Assembly (NCBI RefSeq): GCF_027620315.1 | Contig: NZ_JAPNNL010000006.1 | Span: forward strand, 27,388-91,387 | Direction of reading: 5' to 3' | DNA length: 64,000 nt | DNA from: Nonomuraea corallina | GTDB taxonomy: Bacteria > Actinomycetota > Actinomycetes > Streptosporangiales > Streptosporangiaceae | Part shown: positions 2,287 to 9,647 of the stretch, piece by piece | How the letters are laid out: each line of letters starts with the position of its first letter | Numbering within the stretch: position 1 is the stretch's first letter | Program-made: the position numbers and the translations under genes | Notes under the pieces: model-generated | Database searches by the model: none | The model's input: only the letters and a program-made list of their open reading frames with translations | What the model was told of the DNA's origin: nothing

Positions 2287-3768
2287 GTGCACGACGCCCG
2301 CCTCACGATCGATCCCGCGTTCCGGGTCGCGCCGGTGCGGCGCCGCACCTTCGGTGCCTTCGTCGAGCATCTGGGCCGGTGCGTCTACACCGGCGTCTAC
2401 GAGCCCGGCCACCCGAGCGCCGACGAGGACGGCTTCCGCCGCGACGTCCTCGACCTCACCCGCGAGCTGGGCGTCAGCACCGTCCGCTACCCCGGCGGCA
2501 ACTTCGTCTCCGGCTACCGGTGGGAGGACGGCATCGGCCCCAAGGAGAACCGCCCCCGCCGGCTCGACCTGGCCTGGCACAGCACCGAGACGAACGAGGT
2601 CGGCGTCGACGAGTTCGTCCGCTGGTGCCGCAAGGCCGAGGTGGAGCCGATGATGGCGCTGAACCTCGGCACCCGGGGCATCGCCGAGGCCCTCGACCTG
2701 CTGGAATACTGCAACCACCCGTCCGGCACCGCGCTGTCCGACCTGCGCGTCGCCCACGGCGCCGAGGAGCCGCACGCCATCCGGATGTGGTGCCTGGGCA
2801 ACGAGATGGACGGCCCCTGGCAGACCGGGCACAAGACCGCCCTGGAGTACGGCCGGCTCGCCGCCGAGACCGCCAGGGCCATGCGCATGGTCGACCCCGG
2901 CCTCGAACTGGTCGCGTGCGGCAGCTCCGGCTCGACCATGCCGACGTTCGGCGCGTGGGAGGCGACCGTGCTGGAGGAGACGTACGACGTCGTCGACCTC
3001 ATCTCGTGCCACGCCTACTACGAGGAGAAGGACGGCGACCTCGGCAGCTTCCTGGCGTGCTCGACCGACATGGAGTACTTCATCCGCTCGGTCGTCGCCA
3101 CCGCCGACCACGTGGGGGCCAGGCTGAAGTCACGCAAGCGGATCGACGTCTCGTTCGACGAGTGGAACGTCTGGTACCTGTCGCGCTTCCAGGCGGCCGA
3201 ACCGCCGCGGGACTGGCCGGTCGCGCCGCCGCTGCTGGAAGACCACTACCACCTGGCGGACGCGGTAGCCCTCGGCGGGCTGCTCATCACCCTGCTGCGC
3301 AACAGCGACCGGGTGACGGCCGCCTCGCTGGCCCAGCTCGTCAACGTGATCGCGCCGATCATGACCGAGCCCGGCGGGCGGGCCTGGCGGCAGACCACCT
3401 TCCACCCGTTCGCCCAGGCCAGCCGGTACGCGGCCGGTGACGTGCTGCGGGTCGAGCCGGTCTCCCCGCTGTACGAGACCGCGGAGTACGGGGAGGTGCC
3501 GCTGCTGCACGCGGTCGCCACCCGCTCCGACGACGGCGTCACGATCTTCGCCGTCAACCGCGCCACCGACGGGCCGCTCTCCCTGGAGCTCGACGCCCGC
3601 GGCCTGCGGATCACCTCGGCCACCACCCTCACCGACCCGGACGTCTACGCCCGCAACACCGCCGACGACCCGGACCGCGTGGCCCCCCGTCCCAACGAGA
3701 ACGTGGAACAGGACCCGATGCGCGTCCTCCTCCCCCCGGTCAGCTGGAACGTCATCCACCTGTCCTAG
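2287..3768 (+). CDS. abfA: GH51 alpha-L-arabinofuranosidase
   Basis: This 493-residue protein matches the length and motifs of intracellular GH51 arabinofuranosidases, which release arabinose from arabino-oligosaccharides by a retaining mechanism. Visible motifs are GAFVEHLGRCVYTG near the N terminus, WCLGNEMDG with the likely acid/base Glu173, and DVSFDEWNVWY with the likely nucleophile Glu292. There is no signal peptide. GTG 2287 is chosen because AAGGAG ends 6 bp upstream; a longer frame through the tandem repeat exists but lacks a ribosome site. A LacI-type site upstream suggests sugar-responsive repression. Its stop overlaps the stop of the convergent SARP gene. Confidence 0.92.
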   Translation: MHDARLTIDPAFRVAPVRRRTFGAFVEHLGRCVYTGVYEPGHPSADEDGFRRDVLDLTRELGVSTVRYPGGNFVSGYRWEDGIGPKENRPRRLDLAWHSTETNEVGVDEFVRWCRKAEVEPMMALNLGTRGIAEALDLLEYCNHPSGTALSDLRVAHGAEEPHAIRMWCLGNEMDGPWQTGHKTALEYGRLAAETARAMRMVDPGLELVACGSSGSTMPTFGAWEATVLEETYDVVDLISCHAYYEEKDGDLGSFLACSTDMEYFIRSVVATADHVGARLKSRKRIDVSFDEWNVWYLSRFQAAEPPRDWPVAPPLLEDHYHLADAVALGGLLITLLRNSDRVTAASLAQLVNVIAPIMTEPGGRAWRQTTFHPFAQASRYAAGDVLRVEPVSPLYETAEYGEVPLLHAVATRSDDGVTIFAVNRATDGPLSLELDARGLRITSATTLTDPDVYARNTADDPDRVAPRPNENVEQDPMRVLLPPVSWNVIHLS

Positions 3769-6700
3769 CGGCGGACGCCCTCGGCGTCACCCCCGACGGT
3801 TTCGAGCAGCGCCGTGAGCTCCTTCACCTCGGCGTGATTGTCGAGCTGCACGAAGAGCCGGCGGGCCGCGCTCCAGGCCGTACGGGCCTGGTCTGGATCG
3901 GTGGTCGCGTGCAGGGCGCCGAGGGACTTGAGGGCCTGCCCCTCGTGGAAAGGGCTGGCGAGCTCGCGCCAGATCTCGACGGCGGCGGCGGTGTGGGCGA
4001 CGGCCAGGGCATGGCGGCCCTCAGCCTGTTCGAGCTCTCCGAGCGCGCTCAGTGACATGGCCTCCTGGAAGCGTGCCCCCCAGCGGCGGGCCGCCCGGAG
4101 GCTCCTGTCGAGCACATGCCTGCCGCGCGAGTCGCCCAGCTTGACGTAAGTCATGCCCAGGTGCGGCAAGATGGTGATCTCGCTGCTTCTGCTGCGGAGC
4201 GAACGGGCCAGTTCCACGCCTCGCGTGAAGTGCGCCTCGGCCTCGACAAGGCCGCCCTCCTCCCGCCGTACGATGCCGAGCAGGGTGTGGATGCGGCACA
4301 GCTGCGACAAGAGGGGCACGTCCTCGGCGAGTCGGAGGCCGGCCTCCAGATGGACGGTCGCCCGCTCGATGTCGCCCTGGATCCAGTGGCCGTACCCGAG
4401 CTGCCATTCGGCCTCCACCTGACCGAGCACGTAACCGGCTTCCCTCGCCTTCGCCAGCGCCGCGTCGAGGTAGGCCACGGCCTTGCGGGGCTCTCCCCGG
4501 ACCAGGAACGCCATGCCGGCGAGGATTCGGGCGTCGGCCTCGCCGTTGACCTCGCCCAGGCTCTCGAAGAGCGCGACCGCGGAAAGGCCGTGCTCCAGTG
4601 CCTCCTCCTCGGCGTGCCGGGGGCCCATGCGCAGGCACTCGGCGAGGTCGCGCAGCATGAAGGCGCGGCCGCGGGCGTTCCCGGCGCGCTCGCAGGCGTC
4701 CAGCGCGAGCCGGCTGGTCGACTCCCAGTCGTCGTAGTAGTCGCGCAGCTCGAAGAAGTTGACGGCCGCGTCGGCGAGCTGCCAGCACAGTTCGTCCGCG
4801 CCGAGCGCGGCGGCCTGCGCCACCGAGGCCCGCAGCGCGCCTCTTTCCGCCTCGAACCAGGCCCAGGCATCGGAGATCTCGACGTGCGGCTCGTGGGTCA
4901 CGCCTTCGGCGGGAAGCGTCGGGAAGACCCTCCCGGGCAGCCGGGTGTCGGCCCGCCGGGCGAGGACCAACCAGCCGCCGAGCGCACGGGACATCGCCGC
5001 ATGGATCTCCTGCGGGGAGGCCTCGGCTTCGGCGCGGTCGCGGGCGTGCAAGCGGATCAGGTCGTGGAACCGGTAGCGGGACTGGCCCGTGGCGTCGGTG
5101 CCCGCGAAGGTGAGGAGGTTGGCGCTCAGCAGCTCGCCGAGGCGGCGCTCGGCCTCCTCCAGGGACGCGTCGAGCACGGCCGCGGCCACCCAACCCGCGA
5201 AGTCGGGGGCGTACAGCTCGCTGAGCAGGCAGTAGAGACGCCGGGCCGAAGGCGACAGGGCTGTGTAACTCAACCCGAGCGAGGCCCGTACGGTGAGGTC
5301 TCCGACCGCGAGTTCGTCGAGGCGGCGTCGCTCGTCGCGCAGCAGATCGGCGACACGCGAAAGGGGCCAGTCGGGCCGGGAGGCCAGGCGTGCCCCCGCG
5401 GCCCGGACGGCGAGCGGCAGGTGGTCACAGAGCCGGACGATCTCGGCCGCCTCGCCAGGCGCGGCCCACACCTGATCCGATCCCGTGATCCGGGCCAGTA
5501 GCTCGATCGCCTGGGCGGGCCGGAAGACGTCCAGGTGCAGGTGCCGCACGCCGGCCAGGCCCGTCAGCCGGGGGCGGCCGGTGATCAGCACGCCGCAGCT
5601 GCCCGACCCCGGCAGCAAGGGGACGACCTGCGACTCGTCGGTCACGTTGTCGATCACTATGAGCATCCGCTTGCCCGCCAGCAGCGACCGGAAAAGGGCC
5701 GTGCGGTCGTCGATCGACCCCGGGACGGTGGACCCGTCGACGCCGAGGACGCGCAGCATCGACTCCAGTGCCCGGCCGACGGCGATGCGGTCAACGGTGC
5801 CGGAGAAGCCGACGTAGAGCTGGCCGTCCGGAAACGCGTCCGCGAGCTGATGCGCCACGTGGAGAGCGAGTGCGGTCTTGCCGACCCCGCCCATGCCGGA
5901 GATCGCGCAGATCGTCGGCGCCTGGTGCCAGTCCGGGGACAGCGCGTCCCTGAGCGTCGCCACCTCCTCGTCCCGGCCGGTGAAGTCAGCGATCGTGGGT
6001 GGGAGCTGGCGAGGGACCACGGTGCCTCCCGCCGGCGGCCACGCACCGGATCTCGCGGACAGGTCGACCCGATCGTCACCGCGGAGGATCGCCTCGTGCA
6101 CGCGGCGCAGCATGGGGCTCGGCTCGATGCCCAGTTCGTCCCCCAGCAGGTCGCGGACGGCGGCGTAGGTCTCCAGCGCCTCGGTCTGACGGCCGGACCT
6201 GTAGAGGGCGAGCATGAGGTGCGCGTGCAGGCTCTCCTGGTAAGGGTGGGCCCGCGCCACTTCGCGCAGCTCGGCCAACGCCTCCGCGTGCCGCCCGAGG
6301 GCCAGCTCGTTCTCCGCCCATCGCTCGTACACGGTGAGCCGAAGTTGTTCGAGGGACAGCGCCTCCTCTGCGAGAGGCTCGGAATCGAGGAATTCCGCGA
6401 ACGCCGGCCCCCTCCACAGATCCAGAGCACGCCGGAAACACCGGCCGGCGGATTCGTGACTTCGACGGTCGAACGCCGCCGTTCCCTCTGCTGCGAGTTT
6501 CCGGAACTGCGCCGCGTCCACCTCTCCGTGGGTGACGAGCAGATATCCTTCCGGCTTTCTCAGCAGTCGCTCCGCGCCCAGTTGAAGGCGGAGTTGGTGC
6601 ACGTACGACTGGAGGTTGCTGCGAGCCGAGACCGGCGGCCGGTGACTCCACAGAACGGCGGTCAGGAAATCGCTGGAGACCGGCTGGTCCGCCCTCGAGA

Positions 6701-6800
6701 TGAGACCGGCGAGCAGCATCCGTAATTTCCGGGCGTTGCCGAGAAAGGTGTGCCGACCGTCATGGATCACCTGGAGTGGGCCCAAAACCTCGAAACGCAT
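3765..6800 (-). CDS. SARP/AfsR-type regulator with NB-ARC and TPR domains
   Basis: This protein of about 1011 residues has the AfsR layout: an N-terminal winged helix (starts MRFEVLGPLQV), a BTAD helical domain (to about 245), an NB-ARC ATPase module with P-loop GMGGVGKTALAL near residue 300, and C-terminal TPR-like helices (about 600-1000). Such proteins activate specialised-metabolite promoters, with ATP binding as a switch. Start 6800 gives the family N terminus and has GGAG about 10 bp upstream; ATG 6824 in the same frame would add eight residues. It diverges from the peptide cluster at 7129 and is the obvious candidate for its regulator. Confidence 0.9.
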   Translation of the reverse strand: MRFEVLGPLQVIHDGRHTFLGNARKLRMLLAGLISRADQPVSSDFLTAVLWSHRPPVSARSNLQSYVHQLRLQLGAERLLRKPEGYLLVTHGEVDAAQFRKLAAEGTAAFDRRSHESAGRCFRRALDLWRGPAFAEFLDSEPLAEEALSLEQLRLTVYERWAENELALGRHAEALAELREVARAHPYQESLHAHLMLALYRSGRQTEALETYAAVRDLLGDELGIEPSPMLRRVHEAILRGDDRVDLSARSGAWPPAGGTVVPRQLPPTIADFTGRDEEVATLRDALSPDWHQAPTICAISGMGGVGKTALALHVAHQLADAFPDGQLYVGFSGTVDRIAVGRALESMLRVLGVDGSTVPGSIDDRTALFRSLLAGKRMLIVIDNVTDESQVVPLLPGSGSCGVLITGRPRLTGLAGVRHLHLDVFRPAQAIELLARITGSDQVWAAPGEAAEIVRLCDHLPLAVRAAGARLASRPDWPLSRVADLLRDERRRLDELAVGDLTVRASLGLSYTALSPSARRLYCLLSELYAPDFAGWVAAAVLDASLEEAERRLGELLSANLLTFAGTDATGQSRYRFHDLIRLHARDRAEAEASPQEIHAAMSRALGGWLVLARRADTRLPGRVFPTLPAEGVTHEPHVEISDAWAWFEAERGALRASVAQAAALGADELCWQLADAAVNFFELRDYYDDWESTSRLALDACERAGNARGRAFMLRDLAECLRMGPRHAEEEALEHGLSAVALFESLGEVNGEADARILAGMAFLVRGEPRKAVAYLDAALAKAREAGYVLGQVEAEWQLGYGHWIQGDIERATVHLEAGLRLAEDVPLLSQLCRIHTLLGIVRREEGGLVEAEAHFTRGVELARSLRSRSSEITILPHLGMTYVKLGDSRGRHVLDRSLRAARRWGARFQEAMSLSALGELEQAEGRHALAVAHTAAAVEIWRELASPFHEGQALKSLGALHATTDPDQARTAWSAARRLFVQLDNHAEVKELTALLETVGGDAEGVRR

Positions 6801-7128
6801 CCAGTGTCGCTCCGCCCTGGACATTCATAGGGAGATCGCCGGCGGTGGTCCGCCGCTCGGTCATGCTCGCTGAGCGGTGCGGCTCAAGGGGGGTGAGCGT
6901 GCCGATTTTAGGTCGTCGCCGTGCCGGGCGCAAAGGCACTTTCCGGTCTCCCGGCAGGTCGCTGCCCGGGGTTGCGGGGACGGCCCGCTCGGGCTGTCCG
7001 GCGGCCACCCCGCCGCCGTAACACACCCGCCACCGTCAGTGATGTAGCGCGGCCATGGCGGCGGTTCGTAGGTTTTGGACATCCTTACGGATGCGATTCG
7101 ACGGCGCACGAAAACACGGGAGGTGTGC
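6801..7128. promoter_or_regulatory. Divergent intergenic region between the SARP gene and the peptide operon
   Basis: About 330 bp with no credible gene. It must hold the promoters for both directions. A possible -35 element TTGGAC is at 7075-7080, without a convincing -10, which fits an activator-dependent promoter. The ribosome site GGGAGG (7118-7123) precedes the small peptide gene. I could not define SARP direct repeats with confidence. Confidence 0.45.
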
Positions 7129-7224
7129 ATGGAGACGCAGAAGACCGAGACCAAGAAGCTTGAGCTCAAGGTCCGCAAGCTCGAGAAGATCGAGACGACC
7201 AAGCTCCGCGAGGGCAGCGGCTGA
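7129..7224 (+). CDS. Small peptide, putative RiPP precursor (31 residues)
   Basis: The gene is too short for a normal gene call but has a strong ribosome site (GGGAGG, 5 bp before ATG) and stops 72 bp before the E1-like enzyme. The product is 31 residues, about 55 percent Lys, Glu, Thr or Leu, with KLELKVRKLEKIETT in the middle and the C terminus KLREGSG. It has no Cys, no aromatic residue and no signal peptide. The N-terminal part could be an amphipathic leader and the end a core, or the C-terminal Gly could be adenylated as in MccA or ubiquitin-like proteins. Precursor status is inferred from context; I do not recognise the family. Confidence 0.7.
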   Translation: METQKTETKKLELKVRKLEKIETTKLREGSG

Positions 7225-7296
7225 GCTGGTACGACGCGCCGGGGTCGGTCGAGCCGCGATCGGCTCCGGCGTTCCAGGTAACGAAAGAGTGCGCGC

Positions 7297-8397
7297 ATGC
7301 GGAAACCTCGCGTCAAACGTGTTCACCTGCCGATGGTCCTCCCGGACGGCCGGATAAGAATCGGCCTCGGCCAGTACGGCGTGGCCGCCGAACTGGAGGA
7401 CGACGCCGAGGGGAACATCGCCCGCATTCTCACCCTCATGGACGGCACCCGGGACATCGAGCAGATCTGCTCCGACTTCGTGGCGGACAACCCGGAGGTG
7501 GACCGGGAGAACGTGCGCGAGATCGTCGAGGCGCTCATCGGGGAAGGGTTCATCGAGGACGCCGAGGCGGAGCCGCCCGCCAACCTCTCCACACGGGAGT
7601 TGGAAAGGTACGCACGCGCCGGCCACTTCTACTCCTGGATCGACACCGTCCCGCGGGAGTCCCCCTACACGGTCCAGTCGAAGATCAAGGACGCCAAGGT
7701 GGGAATGCTGGGCCTGGGCGGCACCGGATCCGCCGTCGCGGCGGGCCTGGTGGCGAGCGGCATCGGCGCCCTGCACGTGGCCGACTTCGACGAGGTCCAG
7801 GAATCGAACCTGACCCGGCAGCTCCTCTACACCGAGCAGGACATCGGCGCCCCCAAGGTGGAGCGGGCGGTCGCCCGGCTGCGCGCGATGAACAGCCTGG
7901 TCACGGTGACGGGCAGCGACGTCAAGGCGACCGGGCCCGACGACGTGGCAGCGTTGATGACCGGCTGCGACGTGTTCGTGCTCTGCGCCGACGAGCCCCA
8001 GCCGGACATCATGCTCTGGACGAACGAGGCCGCGCTGCGTACGGGAACGCCGTGGTTCGTCAGTTTCTACGCCGGGCCGATGGCGGTGGTCGGCTCCTTC
8101 CATCCCGGCGAGACGGGATGCTGGCTCTGCGCGCGCCGTGACGAGGACGCCAGGCAGGCCGACTCGGGGGAGCGACTGCTCGTGGCCGCGGGCCGCCCGC
8201 CGAACGCGGTGGTCGCCGCCAGCGCCAACATCAGCGGTCACATGTGCGCGCTGGAGGTGCTCTACCACCTCGGCGGCCTGCCCGCCCAGGCGCGCGGACG
8301 GATCTTCCACTGGAACTTCGCGGTCTGGGACCACTGCTACGCCGTGCCGGTGGCGCGTCACGACGACTGCCCCGCCTGCGGCTCGGTGAGCGGATGA
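7297..8397 (+). CDS. E1/ThiF-like adenylating enzyme with N-terminal PqqD/RRE-like region
   Basis: This 366-residue protein has two parts. Residues about 5-95 resemble a PqqD/RRE winged-helix fold that binds leader peptides (GQYGVAAELEDDAEGNI, ending EALIGEGFIEDA). Residues about 125-366 are an E1-type domain with nucleotide loop GLGGTG (139-144), DFDEVQESNLTRQ and DIGAPKVERA downstream, plus two zinc-type pairs (Cys275/278 and Cys358/361). Known relatives of this architecture, MccB of microcin C7 and PaaA of pantocin A, adenylate a peptide carboxylate with ATP. All visible catalytic motifs are intact. It overlaps the next gene by 4 bp (ATGA). Reaction and product are not known. Confidence 0.85.
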   Translation: MRKPRVKRVHLPMVLPDGRIRIGLGQYGVAAELEDDAEGNIARILTLMDGTRDIEQICSDFVADNPEVDRENVREIVEALIGEGFIEDAEAEPPANLSTRELERYARAGHFYSWIDTVPRESPYTVQSKIKDAKVGMLGLGGTGSAVAAGLVASGIGALHVADFDEVQESNLTRQLLYTEQDIGAPKVERAVARLRAMNSLVTVTGSDVKATGPDDVAALMTGCDVFVLCADEPQPDIMLWTNEAALRTGTPWFVSFYAGPMAVVGSFHPGETGCWLCARRDEDARQADSGERLLVAAGRPPNAVVAASANISGHMCALEVLYHLGGLPAQARGRIFHWNFAVWDHCYAVPVARHDDCPACGSVSG

Positions 8398-9647
8398 CGG
8401 CGCCCGCCGCCGTCGACGCGACCGGCACGCTCCTGTTGCGCCCGCTCAGCATCCAGGCGGACGACGACCCGGACAGCGTCATCGTCGGACGGCCGGAGCT
8501 GGGCGAGTTCGTCAGCCTGCCCGCCCTCTACGGCAAGGCGGTCGAGCTGCTCGGCGACGGCCTCCCGGTCGGCGTGGTCCAGCGCCGGATCGAGGACGAG
8601 CACGACGTCGAGCTGGATGTCGTGCAGCTCGTGGAGGCGCTCGTCGACCTCGGCTTCGTGGCCCGGCTGAACGACGTGGACCTGCCGGACGCGGCCGACG
8701 AGGCCCCGCCGCCCCATCTGCCCTGGCTGGCCGAGAGGCACGTGGGGTGGCTGTTCGGCCGCCCGATGGGGGTGCTGTGCGCGGTCCTGGTCGGCGCGGC
8801 GGTCGTGACTCTGTTCGGCCGGCCCGATCTGGTGCCCGTGTACCACGACTTCTTCTGGAGTGACTACATCGGGCTCACGACGCTGGTCAACACCGCGATG
8901 TTCTCGGTGGTGATCAGCCTGCACGAGCTGATGCACCTGGCGGCGGCGCGATCGCTCGGCACGCCCGCGCGCATCGGGTTCGGCACCCGGCTGCACAACC
9001 TGGTCGTGCAGACGGACGTCACCGCCATCTGGTCGGTGCCGAGGCGCTCGCGTTACCGCGTCTACCTGTCCGGCACCTACTGCGACCTCTTCCTCCTGGC
9101 GATCCTGCTGCTCGTGCTCGCCTACGCGAACCCGCCGGAGGAGGTCGCGGCGCTCCTGCGGGCCCTCGCGCTGATCACCATGCTGAGCGTGCCGATCCAG
9201 GCACACGTCTACATGCGGACCGACTTCTACTTCGTGCTCGCCGACCTCCTGCGCTGCCGCAACCTGTTCGGCGACGGGCTCGACTACGCCCGCTACCTGC
9301 TCCGCCGGGCGGTCGCCGTCGTCAGGCGGACGCCGCCCCCCGCCGACCCGAGCACCGAGCTGTCCGCCCGCGAACGGCGGGCGGTGCGGATCTACGCGGT
9401 GCTGCTCGTCCCCGCCGCGACGATCGCCCTCGGCACGTTCGCGATCTACACCCTGCCGATCATCGTCAGCTCGCTGCTCCAGGCGCTGGTCGCCGTCTGG
9501 GGCGGCCTGAACGGCGGCTCCGCGCTGCAGGGCGTCGACGGCGGCCTCTTCCTGCTGGTCGAGGGCGGCATCCAGGTCCTGTTCGTGGTCACGTTCATCC
9601 GGTCGCACCCCCACTGGTTCCGCCGCGGGCGGTCGTCCGGCGCGTGA
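8394..9647 (+). CDS. M50 (site-2-type) membrane metalloprotease with N-terminal RRE-like region
   Basis: This 417-residue protein starts inside the stop of the E1 gene, so the two are translationally coupled. Residues about 20-105 again look PqqD/RRE-like (LPALYGKAVELLGDG, VEALVDLGFVARL). Then come several hydrophobic segments with the zinc motif HELMH at 177-181 and a conserved GTYCDLF helix that fits the second half of an M50 active site. Further membrane helices follow at about 330-410. M50 proteases cut within or near the membrane; here the likely job is leader removal or processing of the 31-residue peptide, possibly with export. Not recognised as a member of a named RiPP family. Confidence 0.82.
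   Translation: MTAPAAVDATGTLLLRPLSIQADDDPDSVIVGRPELGEFVSLPALYGKAVELLGDGLPVGVVQRRIEDEHDVELDVVQLVEALVDLGFVARLNDVDLPDAADEAPPPHLPWLAERHVGWLFGRPMGVLCAVLVGAAVVTLFGRPDLVPVYHDFFWSDYIGLTTLVNTAMFSVVISLHELMHLAAARSLGTPARIGFGTRLHNLVVQTDVTAIWSVPRRSRYRVYLSGTYCDLFLLAILLLVLAYANPPEEVAALLRALALITMLSVPIQAHVYMRTDFYFVLADLLRCRNLFGDGLDYARYLLRRAVAVVRRTPPPADPSTELSARERRAVRIYAVLLVPAATIALGTFAIYTLPIIVSSLLQALVAVWGGLNGGSALQGVDGGLFLLVEGGIQVLFVVTFIRSHPHWFRRGRSSGA

Follow-up and report, generated by a model that had tools for sequence, protein, structure and literature searches.

A conserved peptide, E1-like enzyme and M50 protease gene set in Nonomuraea corallina as a candidate RiPP pathway

ThiF-like enzyme pathways and the closest parallels

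Ribosomally synthesized and post-translationally modified peptides (RiPPs) that are matured by ThiF-like enzymes form a class already named in print (PMC12250964, PMC12150305). These enzymes all activate a carboxylate, and each worked-out branch makes a different linkage, so that the products are very different. In the five characterized enzymes, the group used is a C-terminal Asn in MccB, two Glu residues in PaaA, a Cys in GrcB, a backbone amide of WIVI in EnfB and a Trp in IndF (PMC12250964, PMC12150305). Here we analysed 64,000 nucleotides of the genome of Nonomuraea corallina (assembly GCF_027620315.1, contig NZ_JAPNNL010000006.1, positions 27,388 to 91,387; hereafter, the window) and describe an operon-like set that comprises a 31-residue peptide gene, an E1/ThiF-like adenylyltransferase gene and an M50 protease gene. 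This set probably makes a ribosomal peptide, the C terminus of which would be activated by an E1 enzyme of the MccB–PaaA kind and the leader of which would be cut by the M50 protein. A first-pass annotation of the window had proposed a RiPP pathway of an unrecognized class; the pathway is supported by the conservation of the three genes together and by the type of the E1 enzyme, and its product is putative, whereas the class is the one named above. Among the groups used by the five characterized enzymes, the core of the window peptide holds only a backbone amide.

The nearest worked-out parallel is the ind cluster of Streptococcus pneumoniae (IndA–IndF–IndP), which encodes a peptide with the core EDTTNWYFI, a ThiF-like enzyme and a metalloprotease (PMC12150305). 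It resembles the window in its short precursor, its ThiF-like enzyme fused to a RiPP recognition element (RRE) and its dedicated metalloprotease, and the E-D-T-T with which the IndA core starts is reminiscent of the ETT motif that is conserved here. The ind cluster differs in that IndP is an M16 protease and a transporter is encoded; furthermore, IndF links a Trp to the C-terminal Ile, whereas the tails described here have no conserved Trp and the window peptide ends in Gly.

Microcin C (MccA–MccB–MccC; PMC12250964) shares with the window a very short precursor and an enzyme that consists of an RRE and an adenylation domain, MccB being the closest solved relative of the E1 enzyme. MccB chemistry passes through the side-chain amide of the C-terminal Asn of MccA (MRTGNAN), which MccB requires (PMC12250964), whereas the tails here mostly end in Gly and an M50 protease is present. 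An exporter of the MccC type (major facilitator superfamily; MFS) was absent from the flanking open reading frames (ORFs) scanned, and none recurs in at least 5 of 37 close loci. Pantocin A (PaaP–PaaA–PaaB–PaaC; PMC12250964) has a precursor of 30 residues, compared with 31 here, and the N terminus of the E1 enzyme can be aligned to PaaA; however, the core of pantocin A is Glu-Glu, a pair that is missing here, and an M50 protease is again the addition. None of the flanking ORFs scanned encodes a PaaB-type 2-oxoglutarate–Fe oxygenase. Enterofaecin (EnfA–EnfB) and the GRC thiolactone (GrcA–GrcB) share C-terminal activation by an RRE–ThiF enzyme, and the enterofaecin leader motif (V/I)RKA resembles the (V/I)RKL of the window; they differ in their cores (WWIVI and Glu...Cys), in their radical SAM (S-adenosylmethionine) or transporter genes and in that an M50 protease is undescribed for them in the portion of that paper available (PMC12250964). 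Radical SAM genes were likewise absent from the flanking ORFs scanned.

The protease has its own parallel in MpaP, which removes the leader of daptides in actinomycetes and combines an N-terminal RRE with an intramembrane site-2 protease (PMC10036551), an architecture that the M50 protein is predicted to share. MpaP belongs to an oxidative-decarboxylation and aminotransferase pathway acting on a C-terminal Thr, and the word 'ThiF' does not appear in that text (PMC10036551). None of the daptide enzymes MpaB, MpaC, MpaD and MpaM recurs in at least 5 of 37 close loci, and the window peptide ends in Gly rather than Thr. ThiF-like RiPPs have been described before, and so has the RRE–protease fusion in a different class; what appears to be new is the combination of these two, the fusion here being predicted, with an ETT precursor family. 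This set is undescribed in the open-licence literature searched and may sit unlabelled among the further candidate clusters in Figure S1 of PMC12150305; a text search of the literature with motif strings gave only chance words among the matches listed.

Conservation of the peptide, the enzyme and the protease

We assembled 63 loci (36 named, 25 from genome searches, the window and the copy of this stretch in its own genome; 817,217 bases), among which 49 distinct E1 sequences remained after identical ones were dropped. Peptides were identified by the pattern [LIV][DE][KRQE][ILVF]ET[TS], ending 66–346 bases upstream of the E1 gene. An ETT peptide was found in this way before 42 of the 49 distinct E1 genes and by eye before three others (L050, L061 and L069), which had been missed by the pattern or by the E1 bounds, for a total of 45. 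At the other four (L020, L028, L058 and L068) no such peptide was found; L068 has a partial E1 match, the match in L058 starts only with residue 13, and the tree places L028 in the sister group. With a stop required within 30 codons, the pattern occurs nowhere else in the 817,217 bases, except for the peptide of L069 itself, beside a truncated E1 gene. The position of the peptide beside the E1 gene is therefore more than chance, and the small ORF, the synteny of which the first-pass annotation had proposed to check, is retained by relatives. The strong ribosome-binding site described earlier is in place (Table 1), and GGAGGTG is kept there in the three closest relatives.

The tails that follow the ETT motif are short (KLREGSG in the window; INRGGSSG, GLREGG and VVRNDG are representative of others). 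Every one of the 45 close-set tails contains an Arg, which occupies the third position behind ETT in 36 of the 42 pattern hits. The C-terminal residue is Gly in 40 of 45 (37 of 42 pattern hits plus the other 3), the remainder being Ala (2), Thr (2) and Ser (1), with Asn in none. Tails are 6–15 amino acids long in the 42 pattern hits (6–8 in 36 of them) and 21 in L061. In the leader, the (V/I)RK of the window stands against IKR at the same place in many relatives. The window peptide contains no Cys, Trp or Glu-Glu pair. The earlier statement that the peptide lacks Cys holds for the window and does not extend to Kribbella-type relatives, which have longer tails with two Cys residues (AIIVTDPGCRNEVCG). 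In L062–L066 (Kribbella and Allorhizocola), these tails end DPGC-R-(N/D)-x-x-C-(G/S) and perhaps lead to a different product.

Among the four closest peptide genes (sums over six pairs), 26 of 51 base differences fall at third codon positions, compared with 11 and 14 at the others, but there are nearly as many silent codon changes (20) as amino-acid ones (22); taken by itself, this bias is modest support for a peptide gene. The peptide and five relatives matched no NCBIfam family. A Pfam match to SWIRM-assoc_1 in two of these six peptides (E 0.03–0.04; 14–15 bits against a cut-off of 27.2) was judged to be chance. On this comparative evidence, the 31-residue ORF is a real, conserved gene.

The ATP and zinc motifs of the E1 enzyme are intact, as had been claimed: in an alignment of 20 sequences, the four glycines of the GLGGTGS loop, the zinc-type residues C275, C278, C358 and C361, and R174, K187 and D232 are all invariant. 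The last three have the same spacing as R167, K180 and D225 of EnfB, which are named ATP/Mg residues (PMC12250964), in a comparison by published residue numbers. Sequence profiles place MccB and PaaA closest among solved proteins, ahead of MoeB and ThiF, in agreement with the kinship to the microcin C7 and pantocin A enzymes that had been suggested; by fold comparison, MccB, MoeB and ThiF are tied. From residue 3 onwards, the N-terminal region of the E1 enzyme aligns by profile with PaaA residues 7–206; the MccB fold match starts at residue 29, the model is poor over its first 34 residues and a PqqD match is weak and below cut-off. An RRE fused to the N terminus of the E1 enzyme is predicted. 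Matches in PADLOC are to E1–E2 models and cover the E1 domain.

The closest named E1 protein, with 95% identity, is also from Nonomuraea, and close relatives are rare: 24 of 297 genomes of the order have one at E < 1e-100 (132 have some match at 1e-25), as do 2 of 396 genomes of the phylum at 1e-40, including that of the window itself. Four ThiS-family genes were found in the 7.56-Mb genome, none of them on the contig of the E1 gene. Because MccB and PaaA are nearest by profile, the N terminus is PaaA-like and the ThiS-family genes lie on other contigs, the E1 enzyme does not resemble those of sulfur-carrier pathways; the role in a sulfur-carrier or cofactor pathway that the first-pass annotation had set against its own proposal is thus disfavoured. 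A YcaO partner is also lacking, as stated earlier, the only YcaO match of the genome being on contig C223 and the window on C326. That YcaO gene (C223, 80488–82775) adjoins another ThiF-domain ORF, and the pair is likely to be an ordinary azole-type cluster.

The M50 gene starts inside the stop codon of the E1 gene (ATGA overlap), and in 16 aligned sequences neither the HExxH letters nor an Asp further downstream (9222–9224) varies, which upholds the earlier description of a coupled protease with HELMH. The HExxH motif is predicted to lie in a membrane helix and to be joined by a distant Asp ligand, as in M50 site-2 proteases. The Pfam M50 match (7.7e-05) is below the curated cut-off, and a profile search among solved sequences gave no match at E 1; solved relatives came from fold comparison alone, in which the predicted model combines an RRE with a site-2 protease fold. 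Translated searches place an M50 match near 47 of the 49 distinct E1 genes, the two exceptions being partial-E1 loci. We preferred these searches (and the corresponding 12 of 37 loci for AfsR-type genes) to ORF clustering, which saw M50 genes in 26 of 37 loci and AfsR-type genes in 13.

Peptide and protease were also compared across 100 further E1 loci with 29–48% identity, of which L106 and L107 cover L028 and L026 again with wider flanks. Among the 83 loci with 37–47% identity, both are present in 37, only the peptide in 7, only the M50 gene in 5 and neither in 34 (Fisher 3e-11); the counts for all 100 are 40, 7, 6 and 47, respectively. Kinship was allowed for by independent pairs on a tree built from 145 E1 proteins with FastTree, in which long branches were flagged as unsure: the M50 gene goes with the peptide in 8.5 pairs on average and the opposite holds in 0.3, with 5.2 undecided (median p 0.008, range 0.004–0.07). 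The peptide and the protease belong together.

A hairpin between the peptide and E1 genes is a further shared feature. Across 42 gaps, the longest unbroken stem spans a median of 13.5 pairs and reaches at least 11 in 39. The corresponding values are 7.5 within the E1 gene, and 6 both in shuffled gaps and immediately upstream of the peptide. The 42 gaps hold 34 distinct arm sequences, with the pairing preserved. The energy z is below −2 in 34 of 42 gaps, although only −1.2 for the window. We predict that the hairpin would act as an attenuator or mRNA stabilizer that raises peptide output above enzyme output.

Proposed pathway and alternatives

On the basis of models and profile alignments, the conserved leader strand LELKVRKLEKIETT would dock in turn on the RREs of both the E1 enzyme and the M50 protein. 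We infer that the E1 enzyme would adenylate the carboxylate of the terminal Gly, and that the acyl adenylate would be captured within the short core TT-x-x-R-x-x-G. Three nucleophiles of the core are constant, namely both Thr of ETT, in part because of the pattern chosen, and the Arg; the capture would most likely be a ring on the conserved Thr hydroxyl, with the Arg as the second choice. One observation counts against this proposal: the comparable EDTT stretch of IndA lies in the core, yet is not the linked residue (PMC12150305), which weakens the idea of a Thr ring. The membrane-embedded M50 protein would then remove the leader near ETT and pass the product to the membrane or outside. A ring or C-terminal linkage made on a Gly-ended core through the Thr hydroxyl or the Arg guanidine, with one leader read by two RREs and an intramembrane protease freeing the small peptide from the membrane, would be a sixth ThiF-like RiPP chemistry, a suggestion that we make tentatively and with some doubt.

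The gene divergent from the peptide gene encodes a Streptomyces antibiotic regulatory protein (SARP) with NB-ARC and TPR domains, which raises the question of whether the peptide could be a signal: a modified hormone, released by the M50 protein, that the SARP senses through these domains. The arrangement is repeated in three relatives (Nonomuraea cavernae, Nonomuraea harbinensis and Microbispora H11081), the only loci with an orthologue (77–86% identity) at the same divergent place, and streptococcal and enterococcal ThiF-like RiPPs have been linked to quorum-sensing genes (PMC12250964). We nevertheless consider a signal unlikely: the orthologue is present in only 4 of 37 loci, and the weaker AfsR-like genes that 8 more loci contain (12 of 37 in total, including the window, in the sequence examined around each) vary in distance and orientation. 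The genome has 15 AfsR-like genes, and plain activation of the operon by the SARP is simpler. At that density, chance would put about 1.4 such genes in the 712 kb examined; they are enriched, in relatives that are not independent. The SARP described in the first-pass annotation is large, divergent and where it was said to be, but was dropped as a core part of the set owing to its restricted occurrence. It is likely to be a local regulator, which would turn the set on in the window strain and its closest relatives.

A microcin-C-like product would suit an E1 enzyme for which MccB is the closest solved relative, and tails in the sister group of E1 loci favour it, as 23 of 50 (37–48% identity set) end in Asn, with SGNSN- or SNSTGN-like ends reminiscent of MRTGNAN, and MFS transporters are encoded at some of these loci. 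For the window this product is quite improbable, as MccB works on a C-terminal Asn that none of the 45 close tails has, and no MFS gene recurs in at least 5 of 37 close loci or was seen among the flanking ORFs scanned. The frequent C-terminal Gly would fit a peptide that serves as a carrier or scaffold, loaded at its end in the manner of sulfur carriers or of peptide-scaffold pathways while a small molecule is built and released; the E1 substrates ThiS, MoaD and ubiquitin also end in Gly. We find this distinctly hard to favour, given that no further biosynthetic gene recurs in at least 5 of 37 close loci, the ThiS-family genes are off the contig, the tails vary in length and sequence (sister-group clusters have several different ones) and an RRE-bearing leader protease would have no role. 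Chance can yield short ORFs and E1 enzymes are mostly found in thiamine and molybdopterin pathways, but a spurious ORF beside a housekeeping E1–M50 pair is extremely improbable in view of the conserved peptide, its ribosome site, the hairpin, the MccB/PaaA relationship and the occurrence of close E1 relatives in few genomes, unlike housekeeping genes.

For the preferred reading, a modified ribosomal peptide, this actinomycete branch is minimal (a peptide and two enzymes); its leader is well defined and its tail short, and in its relatives Asn or Ser mostly takes the place of Gly at the end of the tail. The branch therefore lends itself to testing directly how the end of a core steers one enzyme scaffold towards microcin-C-like chemistry or away from it, and how intramembrane proteolysis is guided by an RRE.

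Sister group, other E1 loci and locus layout

In the E1 tree, the clade of the window has 46 rows (support 98) and its sister group 83. An ETT peptide is present in 45 of 84 loci of the 37–48% identity set, and 50 tails from this set end in Asn (23), Ser (10), Ala (5), Thr (5), Gly (4), Met (2) and Gln (1). The leader (IxIRxLDxIETT) is thus constant while the end varies, with Gly and Arg in the clade of the window and Asn/Ser-rich ends in the sister group. Four sister-group loci (L075, L089, L090 and L108) have two or three ETT peptides each, with differing tails. The SGNSN/SNSTGN ends occur in L071, L072, L077, L085–L087 and others; these sister-group peptides are possible microcin-C-like compounds in actinomycetes.

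The genome of the window has a second set (L109; contig C300, around 3000–5300), with a 20-residue peptide (MTIEIRKVEEVETTGNSNSC) immediately ahead of an E1 enzyme (30% identity), and an M50 protein (33% identity). Three more-distant E1 loci (L093, L094 and L096) encode an S9 prolyl-oligopeptidase-type protein, an MFS transporter and a SARP, and represent another uncharacterized E1 pathway. In L073, L083 and L088, the E1 gene has no ETT peptide, and no precursor was found at these loci; the E1 gene is followed by a DUF6879-type gene and preceded by a PadR-type regulator (annotated in L073 and clustered in the others).

From left to right, the window locus comprises the SARP gene on the minus strand, the peptide ORF, the hairpin, the E1 gene and the M50 gene (Table 1). 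Flanking genes, by Pfam, encode an FtsX permease, a sigma factor, an arabinofuranosidase, a LacI regulator, a pyridoxal-phosphate-dependent decarboxylase, and RDD, HATPase, GntR and PP2C proteins, none of which is among the genes that recur in at least 5 of 37 close loci. The ORFs of at least 90 amino acids that do recur are E1, M50 and AfsR-type only, plus ORFs antisense over E1 and M50.

Table 1 Features of the peptide–E1–M50 locus in the window
Feature	Position	Strand	Details
SARP gene, AfsR-like	3765..6824	−	BTAD, NB-ARC and TPR domains; divergent from peptide gene
GGAGG ribosome-binding site of peptide gene	7119..7123	+	5 nt before ATG
Precursor peptide gene	7129..7224	+	31 aa, METQKTETKKLELKVRKLEKIETTKLREGSG; ORF
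Conserved leader stretch LELKVRKLEKIETT	7159..7200	+	Residues 11–24; conservation; predicted RRE-binding strand
Predicted core/tail KLREGSG	7201..7221	+	Residues 25–31; putative core extent
Peptide–E1 hairpin	7236..7272	+	Arms 7236–7251 and 7257–7272; 16 pairs including G-U; 5-nt loop
E1/ThiF-like adenylyltransferase gene	7297..8397	+	366 aa; N-terminal RRE-like domain, approximately residues 1–90
M50 gene, predicted RRE-fused site-2 protease	8394..9647	+	417 aa; conservation, model
Predicted RRE domain of M50 protein	8424..8675	+	Model residues 10–93
HELMH zinc motif of M50 protein	8922..8936	+	Third ligand predicted to be Asp at 9222–9224

A scan for sigma-70 promoters and T-tailed terminators gave no matches, a result of little weight in an actinomycete. 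A direct repeat, CCCGCC(G/A)CCGT, is present in two copies 17 bases apart (7009–7036) in the interval that separates the SARP gene from the peptide gene; it may be either a regulator site or a coincidence.

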